Origin: Maritimibacter sp.
GTDB lineage: Bacteria > Pseudomonadota > Alphaproteobacteria > Rhodobacterales > Rhodobacteraceae
Assembly: GCA_002695005.1 (NCBI GenBank)
Contig: NZNT01000026.1
Coordinates: 186,001 to 250,000 of the forward strand
Direction: 5' to 3'
Length of the DNA stretch: 64,000 bases
Shown here: piece by piece, positions 2,820 through 25,891 of the stretch
How positions within the stretch are numbered: position 1 is the stretch's first letter
Layout of the letters: each line of letters starts with the position of its first letter
The notes under the pieces: model-generated
The model's database searches: none
Told to the model about the DNA's origin: nothing
The model's input: only the letters and a program-made list of their open reading frames with translations
Position numbers and translations under genes: made by a program

Positions 2820-3551
2820 TCACGCCTTCGTCCCGGCAGCCCGTCCGTCGGCCCCGAACAAGCGAAGCGCGAGCCCTGCGATGAGCGCCATGAAGAAGAG
2901 CCCGCCGCCGACCCACATGAACGCCCCGGCGAGCGCCTGATCGCCCATCGCGTCCAATCCATAGGGCAACGTCGTAAGCTCATGCCACGGATGCCAGAGC
3001 TTGTCCGAGACGATCAGAAGCACCGCCAGAAGCGTCATCTGCGCCCCCGTGCCTGCGGCTGCGAGCGCCGTGGCGAAGGGCCCGGACGCGACCCAGCCGC
3101 GAAACGAAGCCCACAACACGACTGCGGCCCCGACCACGCTGACATGCATGGACCAATAGGCCAGATCGGACTGGAGCGTGAGGGCATAGGGCCCCGGCAC
3201 ATGCCAGAACCAGAACAGGGCGGCAAAGACCACGGCCGCCAGTGCCGGCGGCGGGGCCTTGTCCTTCAACAGCGGCGCCAGCAGGGGCGCGGCAACCAGC
3301 GTAAGGAGCAGGTGCTGCGCGACGCGGGCGGAAAAGAGCGCCATCGAGGCGGCGCAGATCGGCGAGACGAACAGGACGGCAACCAGCGCCCAGCCGAGGA
3401 GCGGCTGACGCCGCGCCACGCCGCGCGTGGTCCACAGGATGGCCGCCAGACCGAGGGCGAGGACGCCGAGAAGGACCGGGTCGAGTGTCCATCGGGACCA
3501 CAGCTCCGACGGCAGCGGCGGCGTTCCGCAAAATGGCACATAGTCGTCCAT
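2820..3551 (-). CDS. ctaG: CtaG/Caa3-type cytochrome oxidase assembly membrane protein
   Basis: Integral membrane protein of 243 residues with about six or seven hydrophobic helices, resembling the Caa3_CtaG family linked to copper supply and assembly of caa3-type cytochrome oxidases. Recognisable parts are the helix with AQHLLLTLVAAPLLA, the FWFWHVPGPY loop, the helix containing HVSVVGAAVVLW and the conserved DKLWHPWH region. The ATG at 3551 is chosen because GGAGGGTGAC stands directly before it. It is the last gene of the dehydrogenase-oxidase operon and starts 1 nt after the small membrane protein upstream, which supports a role in assembling the CoxI/CoxII copper centres (inference from family and position). 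Confidence 0.88.
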   Translation of the reverse strand: MDDYVPFCGTPPLPSELWSRWTLDPVLLGVLALGLAAILWTTRGVARRQPLLGWALVAVLFVSPICAASMALFSARVAQHLLLTLVAAPLLAPLLKDKAPPPALAAVVFAALFWFWHVPGPYALTLQSDLAYWSMHVSVVGAAVVLWASFRGWVASGPFATALAAAGTGAQMTLLAVLLIVSDKLWHPWHELTTLPYGLDAMGDQALAGAFMWVGGGLFFMALIAGLALRLFGADGRAAGTKA

Positions 3552-3552
3552 G

Positions 3553-3867
3553 TCACCCTCCACAGCTTTGAAAAAAGAACAGCGCCGACGCATTCGCGAG
3601 GATCGCGAGGGCGAAGATCAGGCCGCTCCAGAACGCAGCGGGCCTGAGGTCGCCGTCCTCTCCGGTCCGCGGCGCTGCGACCGACCACAGGCACAGCGCG
3701 ACGCCCAGCACCGTCACCACGGCACCGGCGATCAGAAGTGTCGGGTGGCCGATCAGCGCCCGCGCCGCGCAAGCCGCCGAAATCAGCGCGTAGATCGCGA
3801 TGAAATGCACGGCCCAGACCACGCCCGGTCTGGCAATCGCGACGATCTGACGGGTCAGCGCGGTCAT
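3553..3867 (-). CDS. Small three-helix membrane protein in the oxidase operon
   Basis: Protein of 104 residues starting MTALTRQIVAIARPGVVW, with three hydrophobic segments (about residues 15-33, 42-62 and 80-98). Its ATG overlaps the stop of the CoxI-III gene by 4 nt, and ctaG follows after 1 nt, so it is tightly embedded in the operon. I do not recognise a named domain. By position it could be an accessory or subunit-IV-like component of the oxidase, or an assembly factor; this is inference only. The longer in-frame extension upstream is Arg-rich and overlaps coxI, so it is not used. Confidence 0.75.
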   Translation of the reverse strand: MTALTRQIVAIARPGVVWAVHFIAIYALISAACAARALIGHPTLLIAGAVVTVLGVALCLWSVAAPRTGEDGDLRPAAFWSGLIFALAILANASALFFFQSCGG

Positions 3868-6380
3868 CCGACACCTCCCACCGCGCCCGCGATAAAGAAC
3901 GCGCCCGCCACGGCGACCATCAATCCGCAGCCCTTCGCGAAGGTGGCGAGATTGAAGTCGGGCATCGACTGGCCCGGCCCGATCCGCCGGGTCAATCTGC
4001 GCGCCGCGTTGAACAGCCCCCAGTATGTGAGGACGGCGAGGTTGAAGGCGACAAAGCCGCCGATGGCCCAGAGCGTCGCGCCCAGCGCGCTGGCCCACGG
4101 GTCAATGGGCATCAGGGACAGGCCAAGCGCGGCCACGGCGAGGAGCGACGTCAGCACCGTCAGCAGGGACAACACCGTGGCCCCGGCGAACCGGTCACGC
4201 ACCGCCGCGCGGCGGGTAAGCTGGCCGAATAGCGCGACGGCGAGGCCGAGCACCACCGCAACCGCGGCCGGCAACAACGCGGGCCGGGTGAGCGTTTCGG
4301 CGGCCTCGGGGCGGATGTTCCACAGGTAGAGAAGCCCGAAGATCAGCGAGGCGAAGAGCGCCATGAGTACCAGCATCGTGCCCACCAGCGCCACATGCAT
4401 ATGCGACCGGCGGTCGACCACGTTCACCGGCAGCTCATGCCCCATCCCCGCGTCCCGCGTCACTCCGCTGTCCGACGGCTCCCACCCCCACAGCGTGAAG
4501 GCGACAAGCGCGATGACGGCCCCCACGGCGCAGAGCCAGTAGGCCGAGGCCAGCGTCGCCCCGAACAGGAGGGCGAGTCCGGCGGCGGCGATCATGGGAA
4601 GCCATGTGGGGTGCGGCAGGCGCAGGATGTACAGGGGCTTCCCGCTCACCGGGTCGCAGCCCACCGTCTCGCGCCGCCCGTCGCGGATGCCGTGCATGAC
4701 GCCCTCGACCTTATGCGCTTCGGTTTCAAGAAGGTGGGGCTGATCCCACAACGGCTCCCGGCTTTCGACCGGCGGGATGGCGTGGAAGTTGAAGCCGGGC
4801 GCGACCGGGGGATAGAGCCATTCCAGCGTCCCCGCCCCCCAGGGATTGCGCGGCGCGGGCGGGCCGTGCCGGCGGCTGCGGAAGAAGTCGAAGACGAACA
4901 GCGCGATCCCGGCTGCCAGGATATAGCTCCCGATCGAACTCAGCATGTTCAGCCGGTCCCAGCCCAGCCCCTCGGCATAGGTCGCCACGCGCCGGGGCAT
5001 ACCGCGCAGGCCCGTGATGTGCATGAGCAGGAAGGTCGTGTTGAACCCCACGAACATCAGCCCGAAGACCCAGCGGCCAAGCCGCTCGGACATCATCCGC
5101 CCGGTGAAGTGCGGCGCCCAGTAGTAAAACGCGCCGATCAGGGGAAAGACCATGCCGCCGATCAGGACGTAGTGCAGATGGGCGACGACGAAGTAGCTGT
5201 CATGGGCCTGCCAGTTGAACGGCACCGAGGCGAGCATCACGCCGGTCAGCCCGCCAAGGACGAAGATCGACAGGAAGCCGAGGATGAACAACATCGGCGT
5301 GGTCAGTTTCGGCCTGCCCGAGGCAAGCGTGGCGATGAAGCAGAACACCTGTATCGCTGTCGGCACCGCCACCATCGTCGAAGCCGCCGAGAAGAGCGAC
5401 AGCGACAGGATCGGCAGGCCCGTGGCGAACATATGGTGCGCCCAGAGGCCGAAGCTGATGAACCCCATCGACACCACCGCTGCCACCGCGAAGCCGTAAC
5501 CGAACAACGGCTTGCCCACGAAGGTGGGGAGCATCGTGGCCACCATCCCAGCGGCTGGCAGGAAGATGATGTAGACCTCCGGGTGGCCGAACAGCCAGAA
5601 CAGATGCTGCCACAAAAGCGGGTCGCCCCCGAGCATCGGATCGAAGAACGGCAGGCCCAGCAACCTCTCGGCCTCCAGCAGGATCGACCCGATGATGAGC
5701 GGCGGAAACCCGATGGCGATCATGAAAGCGGTGATGAGGATATACCACGCGAAGATCGGCATCTTGGTCAGGCTCATCCCCGGCGCACGCGCGGTCAGGA
5801 TCGCGGTAATCAGCTCGACCGCCGCCGTGACCGAGGCGATCTCGGCAAAGGTGATCCCGATCAGCCAGAAATCCGCCGAAAGCCCCGGCGTATGCGCCTT
5901 GGTGGACAGGGGCACATACATGAACCAGCCGCCATCCGGCGCCGCGTCGAACACGAACGACGACAGCACGATGATCCCGCCGAAGAGGTAGCAGTAGTAT
6001 CCGAACTGCCCGAGACGCGGAAAGATCAGGTCGCGCGCGCCCAGCATGAGCGGGATGAGATAGACCGCGAAGCCCTCGAGGATCGGGATCGCGAACAGGA
6101 ACATCATCAGCGTCCCGTGCATCGTGAAGACCTGGTTGTAGGTCTCCAGATCGAGGAACGTGTTACCCGGCACGATCAACTGCGTGCGTACGAGGAGCGC
6201 GAGCACGCCCGCGATCAGGAAGAACACGAACCCGGTATAGATGAAGCGCCGCCCGACGACGCGGTGACTGACCGACGACAGAACGTGGATGCCCTTGGGC
6301 GTGTCCCACACGCCCTCGAAACTCTTGTCCTCGCCCTTGCGCGCGCCGGAATAGGTCGTCGGTGTTTCGCTCACACTCAT
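3864..6380 (-). CDS. ctaD: Cytochrome c oxidase subunit I-III fusion
   Basis: Haem-copper oxidase catalytic subunit of 838 residues. Residues 1 to about 555 are CoxI, with haem a ligand H88 (MHGTLM), the CuB/His-Tyr motif GHPEVY (H266, Y270, with the D-channel-exit Glu E268), CuB histidines WAHHM (315-316), and VVAHLHY supplying the haem a3 and haem a ligands (401, 403). Residues 600-838 are hydrophobic and resemble subunit III, so the two are fused. Unusual: the K-channel lysine of A-type oxidases (PTGIK) is replaced by Gln344 (PTAIQ; codon 5349-5351 on the minus strand), and the D-channel Asn after FPR is Gly124. The D-channel entry Asp117 is kept. The stop overlaps the next gene by 4 nt and the start overlaps coxII by 4 nt. 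Confidence 0.95.
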   Translation of the reverse strand: MSVSETPTTYSGARKGEDKSFEGVWDTPKGIHVLSSVSHRVVGRRFIYTGFVFFLIAGVLALLVRTQLIVPGNTFLDLETYNQVFTMHGTLMMFLFAIPILEGFAVYLIPLMLGARDLIFPRLGQFGYYCYLFGGIIVLSSFVFDAAPDGGWFMYVPLSTKAHTPGLSADFWLIGITFAEIASVTAAVELITAILTARAPGMSLTKMPIFAWYILITAFMIAIGFPPLIIGSILLEAERLLGLPFFDPMLGGDPLLWQHLFWLFGHPEVYIIFLPAAGMVATMLPTFVGKPLFGYGFAVAAVVSMGFISFGLWAHHMFATGLPILSLSLFSAASTMVAVPTAIQVFCFIATLASGRPKLTTPMLFILGFLSIFVLGGLTGVMLASVPFNWQAHDSYFVVAHLHYVLIGGMVFPLIGAFYYWAPHFTGRMMSERLGRWVFGLMFVGFNTTFLLMHITGLRGMPRRVATYAEGLGWDRLNMLSSIGSYILAAGIALFVFDFFRSRRHGPPAPRNPWGAGTLEWLYPPVAPGFNFHAIPPVESREPLWDQPHLLETEAHKVEGVMHGIRDGRRETVGCDPVSGKPLYILRLPHPTWLPMIAAAGLALLFGATLASAYWLCAVGAVIALVAFTLWGWEPSDSGVTRDAGMGHELPVNVVDRRSHMHVALVGTMLVLMALFASLIFGLLYLWNIRPEAAETLTRPALLPAAVAVVLGLAVALFGQLTRRAAVRDRFAGATVLSLLTVLTSLLAVAALGLSLMPIDPWASALGATLWAIGGFVAFNLAVLTYWGLFNAARRLTRRIGPGQSMPDFNLATFAKGCGLMVAVAGAFFIAGAVGGVG

Positions 6381-7303
6381 GTCAGGCTCTCCAGCCAGGC
6401 GACCAGCGCGCGCAGGTCAGGCCCGGACAACTGGTTGTAGGAGGGCATCTCGGCGCCCGGTTTCATGTCGCCCACATCCGCGATCCAGCCGGCGAGGTTG
6501 CCGGTGTTCATCTCCCACATCCCAGCGCCCAGCGCGGCACGTCCGCCCACGCGGGTCAGGTCAGGGCCGATCCGGGCGTCGCTGATCCCTTGTACCCGGT
6601 GGCAGGCGACGCAGCCGGAGGTCTGAAACACCTCGGCCCCGCGACGTTCCTGCGGCGTGACGGCATCGCGGGCCTCGCCATCGAGATCGGCGAGAAAGGC
6701 GTCGTATTCCTCGGGCGGCAGGACAACCGCCTCGAAGGCCATGAGCGGGTGGGCCAGACCGCAGAACTCGGCGCACTGGCCGCGGAACCGGCCCTCTCGG
6801 GTGGCGGTCACGGTGAGCGTGTTCACGCGGCCGGGGATCATGTCCATCTTGCCGGCGATCGACGGCACCCAGAAGGAGTGGATCACGTCGGTGCTTTTCA
6901 GCCGGATCTCCACGGGCTCGCCCAGGGGCAGCACCACCTCGTTCGCGTCCCGCAGGGCGCGCCCTTCCGGGTCATAGATCACGTCCCACCAGAACTGCTT
7001 GCCGGTCACTTCGATGACATGGGCCGGGGTCGACGGCCCCGCGATGGCGCGCAGCACGAAGGTCGACGTGACGAACAGCGTGCCGATCACGACGACGGGA
7101 AAGATCACGCCGCCGCCCACGATCCACCATGTCTGCCCGCCCCCGCGCCCGCGCCACGCGAGAGCGATAAAGACCATGACGACCACGAAGATCGCCACGC
7201 CCGCGGCCGACATGAGAACCGTAAGCCACAGCGTCTCACCCGCCGCGAAGCCCGCGACGTTCGATGTGTCCTGACTGCCGAATGTGTCGAGTGTCGACTC
7301 CAT
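6377..7303 (-). CDS. ctaC: Cytochrome c oxidase subunit II with fused cytochrome c domain
   Basis: caa3-type CoxII of 308 residues. There are two N-terminal membrane helices (about 25-50 and 58-84), then a periplasmic cupredoxin domain with a complete CuA site: H142 (IHSFWVP), C177, E179, C181, H185 and M188 (QCAEFCGLAHPLM). The aromatic patch KQFWWDV at about 102-108 is typical for electron entry. A C-terminal class I cytochrome c domain carries CVACH (231-235), with a probable distal Met in GAEMPSYN. The fusion means electrons can arrive from small cytochromes c encoded just upstream. Its stop overlaps the coxI-III start by 4 nt. Confidence 0.95.
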   Translation of the reverse strand: MESTLDTFGSQDTSNVAGFAAGETLWLTVLMSAAGVAIFVVVMVFIALAWRGRGGGQTWWIVGGGVIFPVVVIGTLFVTSTFVLRAIAGPSTPAHVIEVTGKQFWWDVIYDPEGRALRDANEVVLPLGEPVEIRLKSTDVIHSFWVPSIAGKMDMIPGRVNTLTVTATREGRFRGQCAEFCGLAHPLMAFEAVVLPPEEYDAFLADLDGEARDAVTPQERRGAEVFQTSGCVACHRVQGISDARIGPDLTRVGGRAALGAGMWEMNTGNLAGWIADVGDMKPGAEMPSYNQLSGPDLRALVAWLESLT

Positions 7304-7304
7304 C

Positions 7305-7820
7305 TCAGCGCCTCAACGTGTAGAGATAGGCCGCCATGTGCTCCGCCTCGGCCTCGGTCACGCCCATGTCGGGCATGACCGTCTCGGGCGCGTGGCGCGG
7401 CGGGGATTGAAGCCAGTTGACGAGGTCGCCGGGGCGGTTGGGAAGCACACCGGCGATATACGCCTGATCGTGCAACCCCGTGAGGTCGGGTCCGACGCTG
7501 CCATTTGCGCGGGGAATGCCGGGGATCGTGTGGCACGCGCCACAGCCGAATTGCGCGACAAGACGCGCGCCTTCACGCGGGTCGCCGTCGGCCACCACCA
7601 GCGCAGCTTCGCTCCAGTCCGGCGACGGTCCGGTGCGCTCCGGCAAGACCGCGTCGGCCTGGCGCATCACCCAGGTCACGGCGCGCTCCACAGTCGCCGT
7701 GACCGGATCGGCGTCTGGCCGCGCGAGCGCCCAGACGCTCACCACGACGCAGACAGCCGCAATGCCCGTGCCCACCACGATCACGCCAAGAACGCGACCG
7801 GCTTTGTCCACTTTGCTCAC
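7305..7820 (-). CDS. Membrane-anchored monohaem cytochrome c
   Basis: Protein of 171 residues with one N-terminal hydrophobic helix (about residues 10-32) that probably stays as a membrane anchor, and a periplasmic class I cytochrome c domain with haem motif CGACH at 93-97. The likely axial Met lies in the AHxxETVMPDMGV segment near the C-terminus. It sits 1 nt before coxII and 6 nt after the dihaem cytochrome c, so it is probably an electron carrier between the dehydrogenase and the caa3-type oxidase (inference from operon order). Confidence 0.9.
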   Translation of the reverse strand: MSKVDKAGRVLGVIVVGTGIAAVCVVVSVWALARPDADPVTATVERAVTWVMRQADAVLPERTGPSPDWSEAALVVADGDPREGARLVAQFGCGACHTIPGIPRANGSVGPDLTGLHDQAYIAGVLPNRPGDLVNWLQSPPRHAPETVMPDMGVTEAEAEHMAAYLYTLRR

Positions 7821-7826
7821 GGCCGA

Positions 7827-8639
7827 TCACTCCGCTGCGGGCATATCGTACTCGGCCTGCGCCTCTGCCCCGTCCGTTGCGGGGTTGGACACCCGTGCGT
7901 AGTATTCCGACACGGCGCGCATATCCTCTTCGGTCATCTTCTTCGCGATGGTGGACATCACGTCCATCGCATCATTGTCGCGCGTCCCGTCCGTCCAGAG
8001 CTCGAGCTGAAGTTCCATGTATCCGGCGTATTGCCCGGCGAGATACGGGACCGACGGCGGAAGCCCTGTGCCCTGCGCCCCGTGGCAGTTCACGCAGGCC
8101 GGGATACCCTTCTCAGCGGAACCGACAGCAGCCAACTGACCGCCCCATTGCAGGAGCGTGCCGTCCATACTGCCATGCGCGGTGTCCAGATCGCCCGAGG
8201 GCATCGCGGCGTAATACGCCGACACGGCCTCGCGCTCCCGCTCGGTGAGCCGTTGCGCGATCCCGGACATCACCCGGTTCGGGCGGTCGCCGCTGGCATA
8301 GTCCTGTAGCTGCTTGTACATGTACCAGCCCGCCTGACCGTCGAGGCGCGGAAACGCGCCGGAGCCGTCGCCCTCGCCGTCCACGCCGTGACAGGTGATG
8401 CAGGCCATGCCGGAGCCCCCGTTTTCCGAGCTTCCCATCGCGACAAGGCGGCCCAGCTCCAGAAGGTCGTCGTCCGGCTCCTCCTTGATGGTGGCGTTGA
8501 ACAGGACACTGTCCACGTCGAGCCGACGCTCGAGTTCGGACATCTCCGGCTCCTCGGTCTGATCCTGCGCTTGCACGATGGCGGCTGACCCGAGACTGAC
8601 CGAGGCGATGGCGAGAATGGCGGTTCTTGCAAGTTTCAT
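7827..8639 (-). CDS. Periplasmic dihaem cytochrome c (c4-like)
   Basis: Protein of 270 residues with a cleavable signal peptide (MKLARTAILAIASVSLGSAA, cleavage near AQA) and two cytochrome c domains carrying CITCH (80-84) and CVNCH (182-186). Both domains have the G.GMACITCHG / IPACVNCHGAQG context and the F/VPYLAGQ-Y--Y--QL segment typical of cytochrome c4-like proteins. It lies 12 nt after the GMC dehydrogenase and 6 nt before the monohaem cytochrome. It probably takes electrons from the flavoprotein, in the role of the cytochrome subunit of FAD-dependent alcohol, gluconate or sugar dehydrogenases. Confidence 0.9.
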   Translation of the reverse strand: MKLARTAILAIASVSLGSAAIVQAQDQTEEPEMSELERRLDVDSVLFNATIKEEPDDDLLELGRLVAMGSSENGGSGMACITCHGVDGEGDGSGAFPRLDGQAGWYMYKQLQDYASGDRPNRVMSGIAQRLTEREREAVSAYYAAMPSGDLDTAHGSMDGTLLQWGGQLAAVGSAEKGIPACVNCHGAQGTGLPPSVPYLAGQYAGYMELQLELWTDGTRDNDAMDVMSTIAKKMTEEDMRAVSEYYARVSNPATDGAEAQAEYDMPAAE

Positions 8640-8651
8640 GTCGGTCCTCCT

Positions 8652-10430
8652 TCAGGCGTCCATCAGCGGGCGGGGGTTTTGCAGGTAGTCGTTCTTCATG
8701 TGGTCGAGCGTCCAGTACGCCAGCCCCATCAATGGCCCGGTCGGGTTGTAGCCGAGGTTCTGGGGGAACAGGCAGGCGCCGAAGACGAAGACGTTGTGGT
8801 GGTCCCACATCTGACCGTAGCGGTTGACCACGCTGGTCGCGGGATCGGTGCCGATCACCGCGCCGCCGGTGTTGTGGGTCGTCTGGTAGGGCACGACGGA
8901 ATAGCTCTCGCCTTCCGCCGCGCGGTTCACCGTGCCGACCGCGCGCACGTTGTCCATGTTGCGCGCGATCTCTTCGGCCTTGGACAGGACATAGGCGCTC
9001 ATCTTGCGGTCGTTCTCGGGGAAGTCGAAGGTCATCCGCAGGAGCGGCTGGCCATAGGCATCCTTGTAGGTCGGATCGAGGTCGAGATAATTCTCGGGCA
9101 CCGCGACCGAGCTTCCGTGACAGACGATCCCGACATGGTGCAGGTAGCTTTCGCGCACCGCCTGCTTCCATTCCGCGCCCCAAGACGGGGTGTCCGGCGG
9201 GGTCGGCTGGTAATTGATCGGGCGCCCGTTGGTCTGGTTCGCGCTGATATAGCCGCCGCCGACGAAACCCAGATCGGTGTGATCGAAATTGTCACCGTTG
9301 AAATCGTCGATGGTCATGCCCAGCGCGCCGGCCCCCATGAAGGGGTTGGACCAGACGTTTTCGTCGAAGAACACGCTGGCGGCCGCGATGGTCTGGTAGG
9401 CATAGTTGCGCCCCACCGTCCCCTCGCCCGTTTCCGGGTCATAGGGCGTGCCCAGCCCGCTCACCAGCATCAGGTGGACGTTCCACAGGGCATAGGCATT
9501 CAGGCAGACGGTATCGGCAGGCTGAAACACTTCCTGCCCATTCTCGTCGATATACGTCACGCCGGTCGCGGTCTTGCCGTCGGCCGATTTCTCGACCCGC
9601 AGAACCTGCGAGTTCATCCGAAGCTCGAAATTCTCGTGGTCCTTGACCACGTCGTAAATGCAGATGATCGGGTCCGCCTTGGCGAAGTAGCCGCAGCCGA
9701 AACGCTCGCAGAACCCGCAATAGGTGCAGGGGTGAAGCTGCGCGCCATAGGCGTTTTCATAGGCCTTGGTCACGTTGGCCGACGGCATGTGAAAAGGGTT
9801 GTAGCCCATCTGCGCGGCGGTATCGCGGAACATCTGCAAGGGCGGCGAGGCCTTCATCGGCGGGTTGGGATAGTCCGCAGATCGCGGCCCCTCGAACGGG
9901 TTGCCGCCCTCCTGTGTCTCGCCGTTCAGATTGCCGGCAACGCCCGCCGTGCCGCAGACCCGGTCGAAGAAATCGAGGTGGGGTTCCAGTTCGTCATAGG
10001 TCACGCCCCAGTCCTGGACGTTCATGCCGTCGAGGATGCTCTCGCCATAGCGTTCGGCGTAGTGGCTGCGCATCTGAAGGTCCGAGGGCAGCGGGCGCCA
10101 GAGCTGGCCGTTCCAGTGGATACCGGCCCCGCCCAGCCCTTTGCCGGGCAGGAACGACCCCAGCCGACGCATGGGCAGCGCGGTCTGATCGGAATTGTTG
10201 CGGAACGACAGCGTCTTGGTCGGCGTGTCGATCATGTGTTCCTTGCGCCGGGCATATTTCAGCTCGTCATGCTCTTCGGGCGCGCCGAAGTTGGTCGCGT
10301 CATGGCGCCAGTCGCCGCGCTCGATCACCACGCAGCGCTGGCCCGCATCGGCCAGTTCCTTGGCGGCGGCGAGGCCGGTCCAGCCCGCCCCCACGATCAC
10401 GACATCGGTTTTGGGAAGTTCCGTGGCCAA
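8652..10430 (-). CDS. GMC-family FAD-dependent dehydrogenase, large subunit
   Basis: Flavoprotein of 592 residues. The N-terminal Rossmann motif is GAGWTG (14-19), with E37 in the VVIERG strand for FAD ribose binding. The C-terminal GMC catalytic pair is probably H519 (TTHNTGG) and N562 (GYNPTGP). A cysteine-rich loop (C235, C238, C241, C246; HPCTYCGFCERFGCG) sits where gluconate/FAD-glucose dehydrogenases carry an Fe-S cluster, so an electron-relay cluster is possible. It has no signal of its own; export would be by hitch-hiking with the Tat-signal subunit encoded 3 nt upstream. Probably oxidises a sugar, sugar acid, polyol or alcohol in the periplasm and passes electrons to the cytochromes downstream. 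Substrate not assignable. Confidence 0.93.
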   Translation of the reverse strand: MATELPKTDVVIVGAGWTGLAAAKELADAGQRCVVIERGDWRHDATNFGAPEEHDELKYARRKEHMIDTPTKTLSFRNNSDQTALPMRRLGSFLPGKGLGGAGIHWNGQLWRPLPSDLQMRSHYAERYGESILDGMNVQDWGVTYDELEPHLDFFDRVCGTAGVAGNLNGETQEGGNPFEGPRSADYPNPPMKASPPLQMFRDTAAQMGYNPFHMPSANVTKAYENAYGAQLHPCTYCGFCERFGCGYFAKADPIICIYDVVKDHENFELRMNSQVLRVEKSADGKTATGVTYIDENGQEVFQPADTVCLNAYALWNVHLMLVSGLGTPYDPETGEGTVGRNYAYQTIAAASVFFDENVWSNPFMGAGALGMTIDDFNGDNFDHTDLGFVGGGYISANQTNGRPINYQPTPPDTPSWGAEWKQAVRESYLHHVGIVCHGSSVAVPENYLDLDPTYKDAYGQPLLRMTFDFPENDRKMSAYVLSKAEEIARNMDNVRAVGTVNRAAEGESYSVVPYQTTHNTGGAVIGTDPATSVVNRYGQMWDHHNVFVFGACLFPQNLGYNPTGPLMGLAYWTLDHMKNDYLQNPRPLMDA

Positions 10431-10433
10431 GGC

Positions 10434-11168
10434 TCAGCCCTCCTCTTGCTGGGTGTCTGCGTCGGAGCCCGTCAGCGCGCGGCTCGTGCTGGCTGACCGG
10501 CTGCTGCCCGGCACATGCGCAATGCCGCGCGGCGGTGCGGGAAAGGGCGCGTTCTTGTCCACGAGGTCCGCGTAGTAGGCATGCGCGCCGGGGAACCCGA
10601 CCATCCGCCAACCGGCGTAGTCCTTGTTCCCGCCGTAGATCGGATCGGAGAAATACCCTTCTTTCACCAGCGACCAGATCTCGTCGAACAGGGTCGTGGC
10701 GGGCACGTCCCCCAGATCGAAATCCTCGCCTTCGGACAGACGCGTCACGAAATCCTCGCGCTCGCTCGCGTCGAGATCGACGAGCCGCGTGTCGCCGCTT
10801 TCGAGCCGCGCGATGCCGGTCCGGATCAGCGTGGCGGGCGTGTGATCGACCTGCCACCCCTGTTCGGGCGCGCCATCACGGAAGGGCCCTTCAAGAAAAA
10901 GACCGGCACCCTTTCCGTAGGGTCCGGCCAATTGAAGATCTATGAAATCGACGACGCCTGCCTGCGATGCACTGGGGAAGTCATCCTCCGGGATCAGCAC
11001 ATCCGCCATGGAGGCGAGGAAGCGCGCCTCGTTCCCGTCAAGGAAGCTCCAGGGCTGTGTGTCGAGATCGGCGTAGCGGTTCTGGGCAAGCGACGCACCG
11101 GGTGTCAGGGCCGCCAGCCCGGATGCACCCAATTGCATGAGCACGGCTCTGCGCGAAAAATTCGGCAT
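10434..11168 (-). CDS. Gluconate 2-dehydrogenase subunit 3-like (gamma) protein, Tat-exported
   Basis: Protein of 244 residues beginning MPNFSRRAVLMQLGASGLAA, a clear twin-arginine signal (SRRAVL) with cleavage near SLAQ. The mature part has the subunit-3 pattern 'FLDGNEARFLASMADVLIPED' and a C-terminal 'YFSDPIYGGNKDYAGWRMVGFPG', both typical of the gluconate 2-dehydrogenase gamma family, which escorts the GMC subunit through Tat. The ATG at 11168 has GGGGGA about 6 nt upstream; an ATG further up at 11210 has none. It is the first gene of the oxidation operon, so the operon promoter should lie in 11169-11237. Confidence 0.9.
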   Translation of the reverse strand: MPNFSRRAVLMQLGASGLAALTPGASLAQNRYADLDTQPWSFLDGNEARFLASMADVLIPEDDFPSASQAGVVDFIDLQLAGPYGKGAGLFLEGPFRDGAPEQGWQVDHTPATLIRTGIARLESGDTRLVDLDASEREDFVTRLSEGEDFDLGDVPATTLFDEIWSLVKEGYFSDPIYGGNKDYAGWRMVGFPGAHAYYADLVDKNAPFPAPPRGIAHVPGSSRSASTSRALTGSDADTQQEEG

Positions 11169-11237
11169 GGTGTCCCCCGTTTTGAGAGCTAGTGATAATT
11201 TAACAGGCACCCCCCGCCCGAAAGTTCCCCGACAATT

Positions 11238-11921
11238 TCAATTCTTGCGGTCTTCAGGTTCATCACTGGACCCTTCGGCTTCGAAGATCGCGTCGACATC
11301 GTCGATAATCTCGTCTTCGACGACGACGATCAGCCGGTTTCCTTTCTCGAGAACGGTGTCGGTATGACCGAGCCGCTCGTCGTCATCCGCGGCGACCCCC
11401 ATCACCCGGCAACGGTCCGGCAGATCGAGGTCCCCGATCGCGCAGCCCGCCAGCCGGTCGCCGATCGAGTAGCCGCGCACGGTCAGGCCATTGCGGAAGC
11501 GCAGTTCCAGCGCCGCGTCGGAGTGGTCTTCGAGCATCCTGAGGAGTGAGCGCGCGAGGGTCTGGTGCGGTGTCACGAGGTCGTCGAGGCCCAGTTCTTC
11601 GCAGACCGCGACGAGTTCCGAGCGCACGATCTGCGGCACCACCCGCTCGAACCCCACAGAGCGGCCCACCACGGCCGCCATGATGTTCACGTCGTCGGTA
11701 TTGGTGAGCAGGATCAACGCATCCGCATGATCCCCGAACGCCTCGCGTTGCACCGTGGGCAGCGAGCCGTCGCCGTGCAGCATCCCGCAATCCAGATCCT
11801 CGGCCACCTGATCCAGCTTCTCGCGATCGGTGTCCACCAGAACGACCGTGTGTCCGGTCTCGATCAACTGCTCTGCGGTGGCCACCCCGAAACGGGACGC
11901 GCCGACAATGACGATTCTCAT
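11238..11921 (-). CDS. trkA: TrkA/KtrA-type K+ uptake regulatory protein
   Basis: Cytosolic gating subunit of 227 residues. The N-terminal RCK/TrkA-N Rossmann domain starts MRIVIVGASRFGVA (GASRFG in place of the usual GxGxxG), with D31 in VLVDTD for adenine-nucleotide ribose binding; a TrkA-C domain covers about 135-210. The C-terminal tail is very acidic. A single RCK unit makes it KtrA/CglK-like rather than the duplicated E. coli TrkA. It follows trkH after 10 nt, so the two form a K+ uptake operon. Confidence 0.9.
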   Translation of the reverse strand: MRIVIVGASRFGVATAEQLIETGHTVVLVDTDREKLDQVAEDLDCGMLHGDGSLPTVQREAFGDHADALILLTNTDDVNIMAAVVGRSVGFERVVPQIVRSELVAVCEELGLDDLVTPHQTLARSLLRMLEDHSDAALELRFRNGLTVRGYSIGDRLAGCAIGDLDLPDRCRVMGVAADDDERLGHTDTVLEKGNRLIVVVEDEIIDDVDAIFEAEGSSDEPEDRKN

Positions 11922-11931
11922 GACATTCTCC

Positions 11932-13374
11932 TTATCTCCAGGTGGCCGGCGACAGCGCGGCGATCACGGCGAGGAACTCCAGCCGGCCCAGAAACATCGC
12001 GGCCGCCAGCACGGCTTTCAGGTGCGGTGCAAGGTCGGGTCCGGTCACGCCCGACGACAGCCCCACCGTGGACAGGGCCGAGACGATGTCGAACAGAGAT
12101 CCCAGTGGCGCTTCGCCCGACATCAGAAAGACGATCCAGGCGACCAGGGCGGTGATGCCGTAACAGGCGACCACGGCGACGAGCGAGATGATCCGCTCCG
12201 ATTTGACCGGCTGCCCCTCCTCTTTCAGATGCGTCACCGCGCGCGGCGGGGTCCGCATGCGCATCAGCGTCAGCCCGATCATCCGCGCCACGCTGATCGC
12301 CCGGTCGATCTTGATCCCCCCGGCAGTGGACCCTACGCCGCCCCCGATGATCATCGCGGTCAGCAGGAACGCGACCACGCCGGGCACGTCCGTCACCACG
12401 GCGACCGAAAAGCCCGCCGTCGTCAAAGCGCTCGTGAAGTTCAGCAGCACATCCGTCAGGGCGGACAGCGGCATCTCCGCACTGACGAAGAACAAGGCTG
12501 TAAGCACGACGAGGCCGGTGATGAACCCGACCATTACGCCGCGCGCATTGGTCTCGCCCAGCGCCGTTCTCAGGCCCTTCCGGCGCCACAGGACATAGAA
12601 CATCAGCGTGACGGTCGTGGACAGGCAGATCAGCATCGTCACGACCTGCGCCAATCGTCCGTAACTGGCGAGGCTGTCGGGTCGCGGGGTGAACCCGCCC
12701 GTCGACACCGCGGTCAGCCCGACGACCACCGCCTCCCACGACGTCGGCAGGAGCGGCAGCAGCACGGCGATGGCAAGGATCGACAGCGCTCCGTAGACGA
12801 TCATCAATTGCCGGGCCTGTTCGCGCGTGGAGCTGAGCAGGTCGCGCTTTTCGATCCCGACTTTGCCCATCGCCTGCGCCGTGGCCCCCGGACCGACGAT
12901 CAGGGCGACACCGGCCACGGCGATGGCGAAGCCACCCGACCATTGCAGCCAGCCGCGCAAGAGGTGCCCGGCGAACGGCCAGTCCATCGTCCCGGTGGCG
13001 ACGGTCAGCCCGGTGGAGGTGATTGCCGAGACGGATTCGAAAACTGCGTCCCATCCGGGCAGACCCAGAACCATGAACGCCGGAACGGGCATCGCCGCGG
13101 CAACGGCGAAGAGCCCCACCAGCGTCACGACAGCCTCGATTCCGCGAAGATCATCCGGCGCCCAGAAGCGCGGCGCGACCAGCCCGACAGCGGCGAAGGC
13201 GACCGTCGGCAGGGCCAGAACGGTCAGCAATTCCCACCGTTGGCCTGCGAGCGCGGCTACCGCCGGAACCCCCGTGATCGCCGCGAGCACGAGCCCGTAG
13301 GAGGCAATCGCGCGCAAGATGCGGTCAGGCCGGGCTTTCCACACGACACTGGATTGGCCTTGAGCCGAACTCAT
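11932..13374 (-). CDS. trkH: TrkH/KtrB-type potassium uptake membrane subunit
   Basis: Ion-conducting protein of 480 residues with about ten hydrophobic helices arranged as four M1-P-M2-like repeats. Selectivity-filter-like segments are visible: SAITSTGLTVATG (first repeat), TAVSTGGFTPR (second), SALTTAGFSVAV (third) and SALSTVGLSSGVTG (fourth), each with the central Gly. The loop GGGVGSTAGGIKIDR follows the third pore segment, as in the family. It probably mediates K+ uptake with the adjacent trkA product. The start MSSAQGQSS is in a short polar N-terminus. Confidence 0.93.
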   Translation of the reverse strand: MSSAQGQSSVVWKARPDRILRAIASYGLVLAAITGVPAVAALAGQRWELLTVLALPTVAFAAVGLVAPRFWAPDDLRGIEAVVTLVGLFAVAAAMPVPAFMVLGLPGWDAVFESVSAITSTGLTVATGTMDWPFAGHLLRGWLQWSGGFAIAVAGVALIVGPGATAQAMGKVGIEKRDLLSSTREQARQLMIVYGALSILAIAVLLPLLPTSWEAVVVGLTAVSTGGFTPRPDSLASYGRLAQVVTMLICLSTTVTLMFYVLWRRKGLRTALGETNARGVMVGFITGLVVLTALFFVSAEMPLSALTDVLLNFTSALTTAGFSVAVVTDVPGVVAFLLTAMIIGGGVGSTAGGIKIDRAISVARMIGLTLMRMRTPPRAVTHLKEEGQPVKSERIISLVAVVACYGITALVAWIVFLMSGEAPLGSLFDIVSALSTVGLSSGVTGPDLAPHLKAVLAAAMFLGRLEFLAVIAALSPATWR

Positions 13375-13462
13375 GGCGTTACGTCGGTTTCGGGCAGATC
13401 ATGCACGGCCAACGTGTCGCCGGGCCAAGGGGTTCCGCCATGAATACCGGTCCCTGCCCATG

Positions 13463-13491
13463 AAAAAAGGGGCCACCCGAAGGTGGCCCCC
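13463..13491 (-). terminator. Rho-independent terminator of the PRC-barrel gene
   Basis: Nine-base-pair GC stem GGGGCCACC / GGTGGCCCC (13469-13477 with 13482-13490) around a CGAA tetraloop. Read on the minus strand it is followed by six T (complement of AAAAAA at 13463-13468). It lies 26 nt beyond the stop of the PRC-barrel gene. Confidence 0.9.
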
Positions 13492-13516
13492 AGTTTTCCG
13501 ACAAGAGAAAGCGGGA

Positions 13517-15100
13517 TTATACGTCGTCCCAGGTTTCCATGCTTTCGAGGTCTTCCTGGGTGTGGTCGGTCGAAACCTCGATCGCGTTCATCCCTTCACC
13601 GTTCTGCTGGATGTCCAGCTCATCGAAGGGAAGTGCGACCGGCTTCTCACCGATGCCGAGGAAGCCGCCGACGTCGACGATCACCTGGTCGATCTCACCG
13701 CTGTCGGCGAGAACGAGGGTCGAGACGTCACCGATGCTTTCGCCATTGGTGCCGTAGACGGTCTGGCCTTCCAGCTCGCTGGCGGTCAGCTGCGCCATCT
13801 GGTCGTCGGTCATGGACTCGCCATTACCGGCGTTCTGCGACCCCGCATCGGCCATCTGTTCATCTTCCGAGCGGTCTTCGGACATGTCGTTCTGCGCAGT
13901 TTCTTCGTTCTGCGCGTCTTCGCTCATGTCGTTCTGTGCAGTTTCTTCGTTCTGCGCGTCTTCGCTCATGGCGTTGTCGTTTTCGGCCATGTCCTGCTCT
14001 TGCGAACCGCTTGCCGAGGTCGTGTTCTGCGAGGTCTGCTCGCCTTCGGGCATATCGTTACCCGTCTGCTCGGCGGCACGCGCCTGCTCGGCATAGTCAG
14101 GTGTCATGACCTGATCGCCTTCGGCTTCGGCTTGCGTGCGGTTGAACTCTTCCTCGTCTTCGAGCTTCGAACGGTCGCCCGTGAAGACGATGAAGTATTC
14201 GTTGTCGGCGTCAGCGTCGCTGTCGCGCACGAACCGCAGATCGTCCATCGAGGTTTCGATTTCCTTTTCGCCCATGCCGAGGAAGCCACCGGCATCCAGC
14301 GTGACGGACTTGATCTCGCCTTCGCGGCTGAGAACCACGTTGCCGACGTCGCCCACGCGCTCCCAGTCATTGGAGACTTCGGACATTTCGCCGCTCATGT
14401 TCGCGGTGTCCGTGCCTTCCGCCGGGATGTAGACGGCATGGCCGCTCAGATCCATCGCGCGGATGGTCAGGCCATCTTTCTCGGTCTCGGCGCTGGCAGC
14501 TTGCTGCATGCGCTGGTCTTCGGACTGCATGTCCTCGTTACCGGCATTCGCCTGCTGTTCGTTCTGCTGGTCAGCGTTCATCTGGTCGTTGTCCGCGTTC
14601 GCCTGCTGCTGCTCTTGCTGCATGTCGGCGGCGGACGTCTGACCGCTGGCTTCGGCCGAGGCCTGATCGAATTCTTCGCTCTCTTCGAGCGTCACCTTGT
14701 CGCCGGTGTAGACGACGTAGATTTCGTTCCCGTCAGCGGCTTTCTTGAACTCGACCGACGCGGTCTCGAGGCCGACGCGGTCCTTGTCGCTGGCGGTTTC
14801 GCCGTTCGGGGCGAAGACCACGGTCGCGATGTCGCCGTTGTTGCCGACGAACACGTCTTCGACCGAACCGATTTCGGTCCAGCTGTCAGGCACTTCGGAA
14901 ACTTCCATGCCTTCGACGTTCTGGCTTTCGCCTTCCGCCGGCATGTAAACCGTCGCGCCCATCATGTTGCTGGCGCGGAATTCCTGATCACCGACCGTGA
15001 CCTGCATCTGGGCTTCGTTGGAGTTGCCCGTGTGCTGCTCCGCGTAAAGCGGCATCGCAGTCAGGGCGGCGATTGCGGTCGTCGTGAGAATGCGTCTCAT
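13517..15100 (-). CDS. Exported PRC-barrel repeat protein
   Basis: Highly acidic protein of 527 residues with a signal peptide (MRRILTTTAIAALTAMPLYA). It contains three PRC-barrel-like units, each recognised by 'Y.PAEG/NGES.....G.V..VV...G.I..V.(L)DVGGFLGIGEK' (first near 40-130, second near 210-310, third near 430-500). The units are linked by Gln/Asn/Asp/Glu-rich low-complexity stretches, one with an exact 14-residue tandem repeat (NDMSEDAQNEETAQ). The start at 15100 has AGGAGT 7 nt upstream. PRC barrels are small beta-barrels found in photosynthetic reaction centre H subunits and RimM; exported versions of this type are common in alphaproteobacteria but uncharacterised. Function not assigned; a periplasmic or surface binding role is possible. 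Confidence 0.85.
   Translation of the reverse strand: MRRILTTTAIAALTAMPLYAEQHTGNSNEAQMQVTVGDQEFRASNMMGATVYMPAEGESQNVEGMEVSEVPDSWTEIGSVEDVFVGNNGDIATVVFAPNGETASDKDRVGLETASVEFKKAADGNEIYVVYTGDKVTLEESEEFDQASAEASGQTSAADMQQEQQQANADNDQMNADQQNEQQANAGNEDMQSEDQRMQQAASAETEKDGLTIRAMDLSGHAVYIPAEGTDTANMSGEMSEVSNDWERVGDVGNVVLSREGEIKSVTLDAGGFLGMGEKEIETSMDDLRFVRDSDADADNEYFIVFTGDRSKLEDEEEFNRTQAEAEGDQVMTPDYAEQARAAEQTGNDMPEGEQTSQNTTSASGSQEQDMAENDNAMSEDAQNEETAQNDMSEDAQNEETAQNDMSEDRSEDEQMADAGSQNAGNGESMTDDQMAQLTASELEGQTVYGTNGESIGDVSTLVLADSGEIDQVIVDVGGFLGIGEKPVALPFDELDIQQNGEGMNAIEVSTDHTQEDLESMETWDDV
13887..13970. repeat. 42-bp in-frame tandem repeat in PRC-barrel gene
   Basis: Two adjacent 42-bp units (13887-13928 and 13929-13970) differ by one base (C to T at position 9 of the second copy). 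Each encodes 14 residues, NDMSEDAQNEETAQ, in a linker of the PRC-barrel protein; a partial third copy follows in the protein (NDMSED). Length change by slippage would keep the frame. Confidence 0.9.
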
Positions 15101-15525
15101 GATGACTCCTTTCGATCTTTTCTGCATCGGTCAGGGCGTCGTCCGGCCCGTGACCTTCAGCCCAAAAACACCCTCCCCCCGGTGAGTCGTTCCAAACGTT
15201 TTTCGGAAAAATTCCTGCGGAACCCCGCGCCGGGACGTCGCGTTTGCGCGGGCTCCGGCCGGGGGCGGCTCCTGCGTCCACCTGGCGAAACGCCCTCTCC
15301 CGCGCCCCATGCGTGGCAGACAGTGATGCGCGCGCGCGCGTGTACGCGAACCAGTTTTCGAGCCATCAGTTGCGATCGTTTTTTTTTCATCCAGCCCGAA
15401 ACCTCTCCTCACGAATTGGCGTTCCGGCTCAAGACTTCGCGAGGATCAAATTGGTGGTCGCGCCAGCCTGACGTCACCGACGCCCGACCTCGCAAGGATG
15501 CGGAATTGGAAGAGGAGTGAGTGTC
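15101..15525. promoter_or_regulatory. Divergent intergenic region, PRC-barrel gene / symporter operon
   Basis: This 425-base region separates the PRC-barrel gene (minus) from the symporter operon (plus) and should hold both promoters. It contains an alternating purine-pyrimidine run of CG/TG steps at about 15327-15347, a T9 run near 15379, and AGGAG at 15513-15517 as the symporter ribosome site. I find no clear sigma-70 hexamer pair. The small reading frames in it are low-complexity and are not called. Confidence 0.45.
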
Positions 15526-17127
15526 TTGGGAAACGCACAATTTGAACTGAGCTGGATCGACTACGCCATCGTGGCGGTCTATTTCATCGGGATCATCGCG
15601 CACGGCATCTACGTTTCGAAAAAGCTCGAAGGCGGCTCCGAGAGCTACTTCCTCGCCGGCCGTTCTCTGCCCTGGTATCTCATCGGCTTCTCGCTTTTCG
15701 CGTCCAACATGTCCGGGTCGAGTTTCGTGGGCCTCATGGGCGGCGCCTATGGCAACGGGGTCGCGATCTTCAACTACGAATGGACGGCGTCGCTTGTCCT
15801 GATCCTGTTCGCGATCTTCATCCTGCCGTCCTTTCTGCGGGCCAATATCACGACCGTCCCCATGTTCCTCGAAGAACGCTACGACGTCCGGTCCCGCCGG
15901 GCGTTTTCTTTGTTCACCATCCTCGCGATCATGTTCATCGACACCGCTGGCGCACTCTATGCGGGCGGGCTCGTGATCTCGAGCGTGACCGGGTATCTCA
16001 ACCTCTGGACGGCGGTGGCCGTGCTCGCACTCGTCGCGGGTATCTATACGATCCTCGGGGGTCTCTCCGCCGTGGTCGTGACCGACACTGTGCAGGCGAT
16101 CCTGCTCATCATCGCCGCTGCCGCGCTCTTCTGGCTCGGCCTGAACGAGATCGGCGGCTGGAAAGAGCTGTTCATCGACGTGCCGGAGGAGAAACAACAC
16201 CTCATCCTGCCAGCCGACAACGATTTCCTGCCCTGGACCGGGCTATGGGGCGTCGTGCTTCTGGGGTTCTACTACTGGACCATCAACCAGTTCGTCGTGC
16301 AGCGCACGCTGGGCGCCAAGGACCTCAAGGAAGGTCAGGTCGGCGCACTGTTCGCGGGTTTCCTGAAGCTGCCGAACCTGTTCCTCATGATCCTGCCGGG
16401 CATCATCGCGCTCAAGCTCTATCCTGACCTCGAAACCCCCGACCTCGCCTTTCCGACACTGGCGTTCGAGCTGATGCCCATCGGCGTGCGGGGCCTGATC
16501 ATGGCCGCACTCATCGCCGCGATCATGTCCTCGCTCGACTCCGCGCTGAACTCGGCGGCGACCCTCGTGGTCAAGGACTTCCTCGAGCCGGTGTGGAAAG
16601 TGAAGGAAGAGCGGCAGGTCTGGTTCGGCCGCGTCGTCACGGGCCTCGTCATGGTGTTCGGTGCGGTCTACGCCCCCTCGATCGCCAGCTTCGAAAGCCT
16701 GTTCGAATACTTCCAGTCGTCGCTGTCCTACATCATCCCGACCATCGTCGTCGTCTACATCCTTGGCCTTTTCGTGCCCTGGCTGAACGGCACCGGCGCG
16801 TTCTGGGCGATCGTCGTGGGCCTCGTGATCGGCATCCCGCTCTTTATCCTCAAGGAGGTGACGGGCATCTGGGAAAGCTGGGGCCTGCCCGAGATCCACT
16901 ACACCGTCATGTCGTCCATCATGATGTTGATCGGGATCATCGTTCACTTCGGCCTGTCGGCCATGACCCGGCAGGATGTGAGCGAGGACACCAAGAACCT
17001 CGTCTGGTCCGTCTCGGAATCCAAGAAGGTCTTTACCCAGTGGGAGAAACCGCTTTGGAAAGACCGGACCCTCTGGGCAGGTTTCCTGATCATCGGCACC
17101 ATCGGCTTCGTGATCTGGTTCGCCTGA
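15526..17127 (+). CDS. Sodium:solute symporter (SSS/SLC5 family)
   Basis: Permease of 533 residues with about 13-14 hydrophobic helices, resembling SSS/SLC5 Na+-coupled transporters, nearest in style to the sugar-transporter (SGLT-like) branch. Typical segments are DYAIVAVYF in helix 1, SYFLAGRSLPWYLIGFSLFA (residues about 35-55), FASNMSGSSFVG at the substrate site, and AAIMSSLDSALNSAATLVVKD near residue 335, the conserved Na2-site region. The TTG at 15526 is chosen because AGGAG ends 8 nt before it; a GTG at 15517 is an in-frame alternative. It is the first gene of an operon with MscS, Gfo/Idh and SDR genes, suggesting import of a sugar or sugar derivative (inference). Confidence 0.9.
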   Translation: MGNAQFELSWIDYAIVAVYFIGIIAHGIYVSKKLEGGSESYFLAGRSLPWYLIGFSLFASNMSGSSFVGLMGGAYGNGVAIFNYEWTASLVLILFAIFILPSFLRANITTVPMFLEERYDVRSRRAFSLFTILAIMFIDTAGALYAGGLVISSVTGYLNLWTAVAVLALVAGIYTILGGLSAVVVTDTVQAILLIIAAAALFWLGLNEIGGWKELFIDVPEEKQHLILPADNDFLPWTGLWGVVLLGFYYWTINQFVVQRTLGAKDLKEGQVGALFAGFLKLPNLFLMILPGIIALKLYPDLETPDLAFPTLAFELMPIGVRGLIMAALIAAIMSSLDSALNSAATLVVKDFLEPVWKVKEERQVWFGRVVTGLVMVFGAVYAPSIASFESLFEYFQSSLSYIIPTIVVVYILGLFVPWLNGTGAFWAIVVGLVIGIPLFILKEVTGIWESWGLPEIHYTVMSSIMMLIGIIVHFGLSAMTRQDVSEDTKNLVWSVSESKKVFTQWEKPLWKDRTLWAGFLIIGTIGFVIWFA

Positions 17128-23578: not shown

Positions 23579-23654
23579 CGGACGCACGGCAAGTGAGCGG
23601 CAAGGAACAATGGCCCGCCGGGTCCGTTGATCTTTAAGGAAAGGGAGCGCGCGA

Positions 23655-25274: not shown

Positions 25275-25891
25275 CTGTCGCCCGCACGATCCTGGCGCTC
25301 GCCCTGACCGCCTTCGGCCCCACTGCCCTCTCGGCTCAGTCGACCGACATCCTGCTGAATTGCTCGGCCTGTCACGCCGTGGCGCCGGAGCGCCCCACCA
25401 CGCAGGTTTTCCCCGATCTGAACGGCCAGCCGATCCGCTACCTCGAACGGCAGCTTGAGGCCTTCCGCGAGGGCGACCGGCGCCACCGCCAGATGGAACT
25501 CACCGCCCTCGCGCTCGGACAGGGTGACGGGGCCATGGCACGGCTCTATGCCGACGCGCCCCGCCCGGTCCTCGAACCGAAAGGCATGAACGACGACACG
25601 CCGCCCGCGCTTGTCACCCAGGGCGACTGGAGCCGCGGCCTCGCCCCCTGCGCCAGTTGCCATTCGCTCGACCCCGACACCGACCGCGCCCGCACCGCGC
25701 CACGCCTTCACGGCCAGCCCGAAGCCTATCTGGCCGACCAACTGCGCGCCTATGCGGACGGACGCCGGACCTCGGACCCGATGGGACGGATGCGGGCCTA
25801 TTCCGCCCGTCTCGACACCGCAGAAATCTCTGACCTCGCCGCCTATTACGCCTCGTGGCGGCCCGAGACGGAGGAGGCGAAGAATGATTGA
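25271..25891 (+). CDS. Dihaem cytochrome c, electron-acceptor subunit
   Basis: Protein of 206 residues with a signal peptide (MTVARTILALALTAFGPTAL, cleavage near SAQ) and two cytochrome c domains with CSACH (31-35) and CASCH (127-131). The 'P.L.GQP..Y...QL.A...G.R' repeat in each half is that of cytochrome c4-like proteins. Classical FAD-GDH and gluconate dehydrogenase complexes carry a larger trihaem beta subunit, so this is a reduced or replaced version. The start overlaps the alpha-subunit stop (ATGA), and the stop overlaps the gamma-subunit start by 8 nt. Confidence 0.92.
   Translation: MTVARTILALALTAFGPTALSAQSTDILLNCSACHAVAPERPTTQVFPDLNGQPIRYLERQLEAFREGDRRHRQMELTALALGQGDGAMARLYADAPRPVLEPKGMNDDTPPALVTQGDWSRGLAPCASCHSLDPDTDRARTAPRLHGQPEAYLADQLRAYADGRRTSDPMGRMRAYSARLDTAEISDLAAYYASWRPETEEAKND

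Follow-up and report, generated by a model that had tools for sequence, protein, structure and literature searches.

A GMC dehydrogenase-caa3 oxidase operon of Maritimibacter: a probable stress-induced, self-contained periplasmic respiratory module

In a 64,000-nucleotide (nt) stretch of contig NZNT01000026.1 of Maritimibacter sp. (positions 186,001 to 250,000; hereafter the window), eight genes on the minus strand, at window positions 11168-2820, form an apparent operon that probably encodes a stress-induced, self-contained respiratory module running from a periplasmic alcohol or sugar to oxygen, and that has apparently spread between bacterial orders. The open frames bore out the gene order and tight spacing given in a preliminary description of this DNA: a gamma subunit, a GMC dehydrogenase, a dihaem cytochrome c, a monohaem cytochrome c, CoxII fused to cytochrome c, a CoxI-CoxIII fusion, a 104-residue membrane protein, and CtaG are encoded in that order, with gaps of 3, 12, 6, and 1 nt at the first four junctions, overlaps of 4 nt at the next two, and 1 nt between the last pair. 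Seven products, all but the 104-residue protein, were assigned Pfam families (Gluconate_2-dh3; GMC_oxred_C; Cytochrom_C over two stretches of the dihaem protein; Cytochrom_C; COX2 plus Cytochrom_C; COX1; Caa3_CtaG), and CxxCH haem motifs numbered two in the dihaem protein, one in the monohaem protein, and one in CoxII. Based upon the close spacing, we infer that all eight genes lie on one transcript. The preliminary description had read the operon as a self-contained module; the part of that reading in which dehydrogenase and oxidase form a dedicated unit is well supported by three lines of sequence evidence given below, and the part in which electrons by-pass the quinone pool and the cytochrome bc1 complex (bc1) is plausible.

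First, the operon-type dehydrogenase and oxidase co-occur exclusively in the genomes sampled. When genome contigs were searched with the GMC protein, 24 loci emerged; the gene set stood in the same order in 17 of these (GMC identity 73-95%; one, L010, has no separate monohaem gene), with few-nt spacing retained in most, and the remaining seven (GMC identity 47-58%) were arranged differently. The operon was also present on plasmid pDSHI02 of Dinoroseobacter shibae DFL 12, which has been termed a 153-kb chromid (PMC4373377); gamma is DSHI_RS19645 there, GMC is DSHI_RS19640, and CoxI-III is DSHI_RS19620. The conserved co-occurrence for which the preliminary description had proposed to search was thus found and, because the layout recurs in 17 of 24 loci and in D. 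shibae, we conclude that the arrangement is not due to chance. Among 248 genomes of the family, CoxI-III proteins matched at E ≤1e-150 in 31 and were of the operon type (>1500 bits, next score 863) in five; GMC proteins matched at E ≤1e-100 in 12 and were of the operon type (>1100 bits, next score 1019) in the same five, with the two genes 2.0-2.4 kb apart in each. In a phylum-wide sample of 398 genomes, 36 had a GMC protein matching at E ≤1e-120, which was of the operon type only in the window's own genome.

Second, the dehydrogenases of the operon belong to a clade without the usual trihaem cytochrome partner. All seven other GMC loci of the family sample had gamma-GMC-trihaem genes and no oxidase gene within the 12.6-19.9 kb fetched. 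In the phylum sample, where 20 of 43 matches were fetched, a trihaem-family cytochrome adjoined GMC in 17 of the 20 loci, although two of these 17 genes have only two CxxCH motifs in the called frame, and in one of the 17 loci (L091) a CoxII-cytochrome c gene lies at a distance of 6.3 kb; in the other three (L090, L093, and L095) GMC had no adjoining trihaem-family cytochrome. A representative trihaem protein (L022) matched the cytochrome subunits of alcohol, glucose, and fructose dehydrogenases, which are quinone-reducing. No trihaem cytochrome was found beside GMC in the operon loci. In trees, which were made with FastTree only, the operon GMCs and that of Sulfitobacter pontiacus formed one clade (support 1.0) next to Tranquillimonas (0.98) and amid trihaem-linked branches. 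These sequences are most simply explained by replacement of the trihaem subunit with cytochromes c and an oxidase.

Third, linkage is retained in S. pontiacus with a different oxidase. Its gamma-GMC-dihaem genes nest inside the operon GMC clade; after them come DedA and APC permease genes, and beyond these a CoxII/CoxI-III/small protein/CtaG set, in which CoxI-III, the sixth gene after gamma, falls in a clade other than that of the operon CoxI-III proteins (one clade, 19 of 19, support 0.95). An idea that the S. pontiacus plasmids carry no oxidase, which arose because only three D. shibae records reached 60% identity in a search, was ruled out because the annotated region holds this other CoxI-III. 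In Tranquillimonas (L025), related gamma-GMC-dihaem genes lie near an A2-like oxidase, a monohaem cytochrome, and CtaG; here GMC is split between two frames and CoxI is short, without its N-terminal part, and this copy may be decaying or mis-assembled. On a Burkholderiales contig (L020), CoxI-III, the small protein, and a reversed CtaG adjoin gamma-GMC-trihaem genes, and in Sulfitobacter sp. W027 genes for CtaG, CopD, a CoxII-like protein, and CtaD are divergent from gamma-GMC-cytochrome c genes. Such dehydrogenases and oxidases seem to have become linked, or linked anew, on more than one occasion.

Carriers of the operon include Roseobacter-group genera, D. shibae, Stappia stellulata, and Hoeflea halophila. 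Stappia and Hoeflea are placed in Hyphomicrobiales, yet their GMCs nest within Roseobacter-group sequences in the tree, as expected under transfer, and the operon has apparently spread between orders.

Stress control is an addition to the preliminary description, and the promoter motif suggests that it is exerted by EcfG. The motif GGAAC-N17-20-GTT, the form described for Sphingomonas melonis (PMC6599016; GGAAC-N16-CGTT in Rhizobium etli, PMC3892343), was found in 20 of 20 loci (the window, D. shibae, the S. pontiacus variant, and the 17 loci from genome contigs) when the 100 nt before the first start codon were searched, and lay 54-67 nt ahead of that codon; resampling gave an expectation of 0.22 of 20. 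By contrast, the motif preceded 17 of 396 first genes in other loci and, despite a wider search span of 200 nt, 3 of the 33 gamma genes from loci without the operon. L056-L059 were excluded from the background counts: the contigs of L057, L058, and L059 are as long as those of L013, L023, and L010, and that of L056 is as long as the D. shibae plasmid (L096). With homology-guided starts and a C or T required before GTT, 18 of 20 loci were positive; when the caller's starts were combined with a tighter pattern (N16-18, with C or T ahead of GTT, over 120 nt), 11 of 18 operon gamma genes and none of 33 others were. Bases flanking the motif were little conserved, its own columns being invariant by selection. 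NepR is encoded in the genome, and EcfG-dependent transcription of the operon is predicted. As precedents for control of A-type oxidases by stress, coxPONM has been linked to stationary phase in R. etli (PMC3188799) and an A-type oxidase to carbon depletion in Shewanella (PMC4728554); the accessible portion of PMC4373377 yielded no information on expression of the D. shibae operon.

The oxidase has the features of type a (A1) caa3 enzymes, namely a CoxI-III fusion, a CoxII with CuA and cytochrome c, the metal ligands, CtaG, and a small membrane protein, with the exception of the canonical K-channel lysine. The best solved match of CoxII was subunit II of Thermus caa3 (2yev_B). Pfam did not detect COX3 in the C-terminus of CoxI, but absence of CoxIII was ruled out by fold: with an AlphaFold model of CoxI residues 560-838 (mean pLDDT 85.6), the best 41 Foldseek matches were all cytochrome c or quinol oxidase chains, 18 of them at E ≤0.001 and Thermus caa3 I+III among them, and the chain letters suggest that the matched chains are subunit III. 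The fusion named in the preliminary description was thereby upheld without support from Pfam COX3. The 104-residue protein matched no Pfam or NCBIfam family, and a search with its fold gave no match at E 0.001; it is predicted to form three helices, and profile comparison relates it to small proteins encoded after CoxI-III in operons of two other types (hhalign probabilities of 98.5 and 97.0).

Equivalents of the haem and CuB ligands H102, H284, H333, and H334 and of E286 and Y288 were present in all 19 operon CoxI sequences, and an equivalent of Asp132 is retained; use of haem A and reduction of oxygen are predicted. The same 19 sequences have Gln at K362 and Gly at N139, and N121 and N140 are replaced too. 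Because the canonical K-channel lysine and three D-channel asparagines are missing, proton pumping by this oxidase cannot be assumed. That the glutamine might be peculiar to the operon was ruled out: 23 of 23 other type-a CoxI-III proteins sampled also have Gln at K362 and lack Asn121, Asn139, and Asn140, so that all 42 sampled type-a proteins (the window, L020, L029-L047, L060, L061, and L097 among the loci) share these changes, and the canonical K-channel lysine does not define type a here. The CoxI proteins of L025 and L048 are A2-like, with Ser at K362. Variants of the K channel within family A have been reported (PMC8239418).

From gene content and order, their conservation, the missing trihaem partner, the S. 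pontiacus oxidase, and the promoter motif, we infer the following picture of export, class of substrate, path of electrons, independence from quinone, induction by stress, and energy yield. An SRRA sequence lies near the N-terminus in all 17 gamma homologues compared and was recognised by inspection as a twin-arginine start; the gamma subunit, product of the one Gluconate_2-dh3 gene in the genome, is probably exported by the twin-arginine translocation (Tat) pathway and, by analogy with known three-subunit dehydrogenases, would carry the GMC dehydrogenase out with it. The closest solved relatives of the latter are large subunits of fructose dehydrogenase (E about 1e-33), and of 56 aligned GMC sequences 55 keep the four-cysteine cluster and 55 the pair His519 and Asn562, which are active-site residues; the window protein has both. 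The enzyme would use flavin adenine dinucleotide (FAD) to oxidise a periplasmic alcohol, sugar, or cyclitol, and electrons would pass from FAD through an Fe-S cluster of GMC to the dihaem protein, which resembles cytochrome c4 and a longer cytochrome c. They would continue to the anchored monohaem cytochrome, which resembles the cytochrome domain of CoxII, and/or to that CoxII domain itself, and then via CuA and haem a to haem a3/CuB, where oxygen would be reduced; copper would be inserted by CtaG. A by-pass of the quinone pool and bc1 is proposed because the trihaem, quinone-reducing type of subunit is replaced, and assembly of the chain under general stress or starvation because of the EcfG promoter from which the operon would be transcribed.

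Several observations weigh against this interpretation. The separate monohaem gene is missing in Histidinibacterium lentulum (L010) and, at its usual place, in S. pontiacus. The 20 loci fall into eight clusters at 85% GMC identity and are therefore not 20 independent events. The search profiles were built from operon sequences, the GMC profile (A1) also held six other GMCs, the bit thresholds were chosen after the gap in scores was visible, and at most three or five candidates were scored per genome. The tree node that links the operon GMCs to the nearest trihaem group is weak (0.29), and the proposal of a single transcript comes from gene spacing. GGAAC -35 elements are common to other extracytoplasmic function sigma factors; L015 and L021 have GGTT instead of C/TGTT at the -10 element; 34 of 137 immediate neighbour genes in the operon loci carry an EcfG-like site, which marks a site-rich neighbourhood; and the control genes had their start codons set by a less refined caller than the operon genes did. 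Finally, the genome also encodes cytochrome c1 and cytochrome b of bc1 and, by inspection, an aa3 CoxI and cbb3 CcoN/CcoO (as well as NorB), so that crosstalk via cytochrome c is possible.

The presence of bc1 and other oxidases would suit an arrangement in which dehydrogenase and oxidase share regulation but work in separate circuits, GMC feeding a general cytochrome c pool that caa3 drains and to which bc1 contributes. Stress-induced A-type oxidases that end ordinary chains are known, as in the P. aeruginosa (Pseudomonas aeruginosa) cox case (PMC5436846), and an EcfG-like site likewise lies no more than 200 nt from CtaG or CoxII in 13 of 22 other CoxI-III-type loci without GMC in the fetched stretch; we nonetheless regard separate circuits as unlikely in view of the exclusive pairing of GMC and CoxI-III in five of five genomes, the linkage retained with another oxidase in S. 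pontiacus, and the two additional cytochromes within the same operon. We give less credence still to the possibility that the chain serves chiefly as a safety valve, burning oxygen or relieving reduced compounds in the periplasm during stress while pumping few protons; only purpose and energy yield set this reading apart from the self-contained respiratory module, and because the two readings overlap the probabilities we attach to them do not sum to one. The K362, N121, N139, and N140 replacements and the stress-type promoter and neighbours (TrkH, PRC-barrel, and MscS; MgtC in D. shibae; Dps, superoxide dismutase, and MgtC in S. pontiacus) fit such a valve, but the Asp132 and Glu286 equivalents are retained, the replacements are shared by the 23 other type-a proteins and are thus not specific to the operon, and the family-A variants in print point the same way. 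Mere genomic hitch-hiking, in which dehydrogenase and oxidase sit side by side on a stress island but do no joint work, is very improbable despite the chromid location in D. shibae and the further stress-type genes in the same stretch, given the spacing retained in most of the 17 loci, the exclusive co-occurrence, and the missing trihaem partner in the oxidase-linked clade.

A bolder version of the module, in which the operon is a portable cassette for 'emergency respiration' of marine Alphaproteobacteria under EcfG-controlled stress that needs neither quinone nor bc1, ends in an oxidase whose proton path is unorthodox, and passes as one unit through inheritance, transfer, and re-plumbing by exchange of the oxidase, is put forward tentatively, as an idea that may well prove wrong.

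Parts of the arrangement have known counterparts. Like fructose, glucose, and gluconate dehydrogenases, the operon enzyme combines a fructose-dehydrogenase-like GMC large subunit with a Tat-type Gluconate_2-dh3 small subunit; unlike the three-subunit FAD dehydrogenases, it has a c4-like dihaem cytochrome and an oxidase instead of the trihaem quinone-reducing subunit, for which reason we do not file it with them, and its GMC cysteines are spaced C-x2-C-x2-C-x4-C. CoxI-III and CoxII-c fusions also occur in Thermus caa3, but the operon CoxI has GHPEVY with Glu (A1 type) and a dehydrogenase is present in the operon. Cytochromes c and an oxidase likewise share one operon in the Acidithiobacillus ferrooxidans rus operon, which, in a 1999 paper, is said to encode two c-type cytochromes, an aa3 oxidase, and rusticyanin. 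The rus operon serves a whole chain from Fe(II) to oxygen, the donor being Fe(II) and not an organic substrate oxidised via a flavoprotein. Cytochrome c oxidase (COX) operons of type a also have a CoxI-III fusion and small membrane proteins among the COX genes, and a type a-II cluster can include a periplasmic dehydrogenase, there of the pyrroloquinoline quinone type; here, by contrast, a flavin-dependent GMC, gamma, and two cytochromes are encoded ahead of the oxidase in a single operon that has an EcfG motif, and GMC is not mentioned in the main text of that study (Degli Esposti 2014, PMC4013037). A caa3-type CtaG often accompanies subtype a (PMC6431628). The P. aeruginosa caa3 enzyme, like the operon oxidase, is an A-type oxidase under a stress sigma factor, there RpoS, and helps in carbon starvation; the main text of PMC5436846 never uses the word dehydrogenase and reports no co-encoded one. 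Dehydrogenase-linked COX operons and stress-induced caa3 oxidases are thus already known, and the eight-gene arrangement is a variant of these. Judged by titles and abstract openings, no GMC-caa3 operon was met among the literature matches listed, in which subscription journals are thinly covered.

If the proposed chain is correct, respiration can be portable as one self-sufficient cassette, deployed in stress and mobile between lineages, and D. shibae, which is cultured and carries the operon on pDSHI02, offers a system for a dedicated dehydrogenase-oxidase by-pass of bc1. It would also open the questions of which compounds marine bacteria under stress oxidise beyond the cytoplasm and of how a type-a oxidase handles protons without the usual K-channel lysine.

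Table 1. Positions in the window of the operon genes, the promoter motif, and a possible partner gene.
Feature	Position	Strand	Details
EcfG-type promoter motif GGAAC-N19-GTT	11202..11228	-	60 nt upstream of first start codon
Gamma subunit, 244 residues, Tat-like signal SRRAVLMQLGASGLAAL	10434..11168	-	Gluconate_2-dh3 (PF13618)
GMC dehydrogenase, 592 residues, TTG start	8652..10430	-	Cys235-x2-Cys238-x2-Cys241-x4-Cys246, His519, Asn562
Dihaem cytochrome c, c4-like, 270 residues	7827..8639	-	N-terminal hydrophobic signal, Pfam, CxxCH
Monohaem cytochrome c, 171 residues, GTG start	7305..7820	-	N-terminal membrane segment, Pfam, CxxCH
CoxII with CuA motif and fused cytochrome c, 308 residues	6377..7303	-	Pfam, structure match
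CoxI-CoxIII fusion, 838 residues, A1-type motif GHPEVY	3864..6380	-	Pfam COX1 and fold match
Predicted three-helix membrane protein, 104 residues	3553..3867	-	His21, Cys33, Cys102 invariant in 14 sequences
Caa3_CtaG copper-assembly protein, 243 residues	2820..3551	-	Pfam
Sodium:solute symporter, possible functional partner	15517..17127	+	Co-occurrence with operon

Genes near the operon bear on its substrate. In the fetched stretches (about 10 kb, or to the contig end) of 19 operon loci (the window, the 17 loci, and L056), neighbours included a sodium:solute symporter and an MscS-family protein in at least 13 loci each, an SDR-family protein in at least 11, TrkH plus TrkA in at least 11, a PRC-barrel protein in at least nine, a Gfo/Idh/MocA protein in at least seven, and an alpha-amylase-type glycosyl hydrolase in at least three; these counts are lower bounds, and because the neighbours were clustered by similarity paralogues may be lumped. 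Open reading frames beyond the operon came from a codon-usage caller, and some of their starts are mis-set. The symporter (identity ≥66%) was present in five of five operon genomes, on another contig in one of them, and in 2 of 243 others (p 2.8e-9, with no phylogenetic correction). It was assigned to the general sss family only and resembles PRK10484 below the cut-off, and NCBIfam gave no substrate name for the GMC, SDR, or Gfo/Idh/MocA proteins. The fructose-dehydrogenase-like GMC and the co-occurring symporter together point to a sugar, polyol, or cyclitol as substrate.

Within the window, genes for TrkA, TrkH, and a PRC-barrel protein adjoin the operon at 11238-15193 on the minus strand; EcfG-like sites at 13436 and 15193 lie ahead of TrkH and the PRC-barrel gene, so that this stretch looks like a stress island. 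Directly downstream of CtaG, at 2043-2732 on the minus strand, is a HisKA_2 histidine kinase that resembles PhyK below the cut-off and had no clustering relative in the other fetched loci. A second GMC dehydrogenase, with a dihaem cytochrome and an FAD-SLDH-type small subunit, is encoded at 23604-26297 on the plus strand and has its own EcfG-like site at 23604, 51 nt ahead of the 23655 start. On a plasmid of Thermus thermophilus (L098), a GMC-gamma pair (55.6% identity) lies near sugar/ribose transport genes, with no adjoining cytochrome gene annotated.

Two further CoxI-III gene clusters recur in the family with no GMC gene within the fetched stretches, one in L030, L031, L033, L034, L038, L040, L045, and L061 and the other in L032, L035-L037, L039, L041-L044, L046, L047, and L060; several loci of these clusters have EcfG-like sites upstream of CtaG or CoxII.

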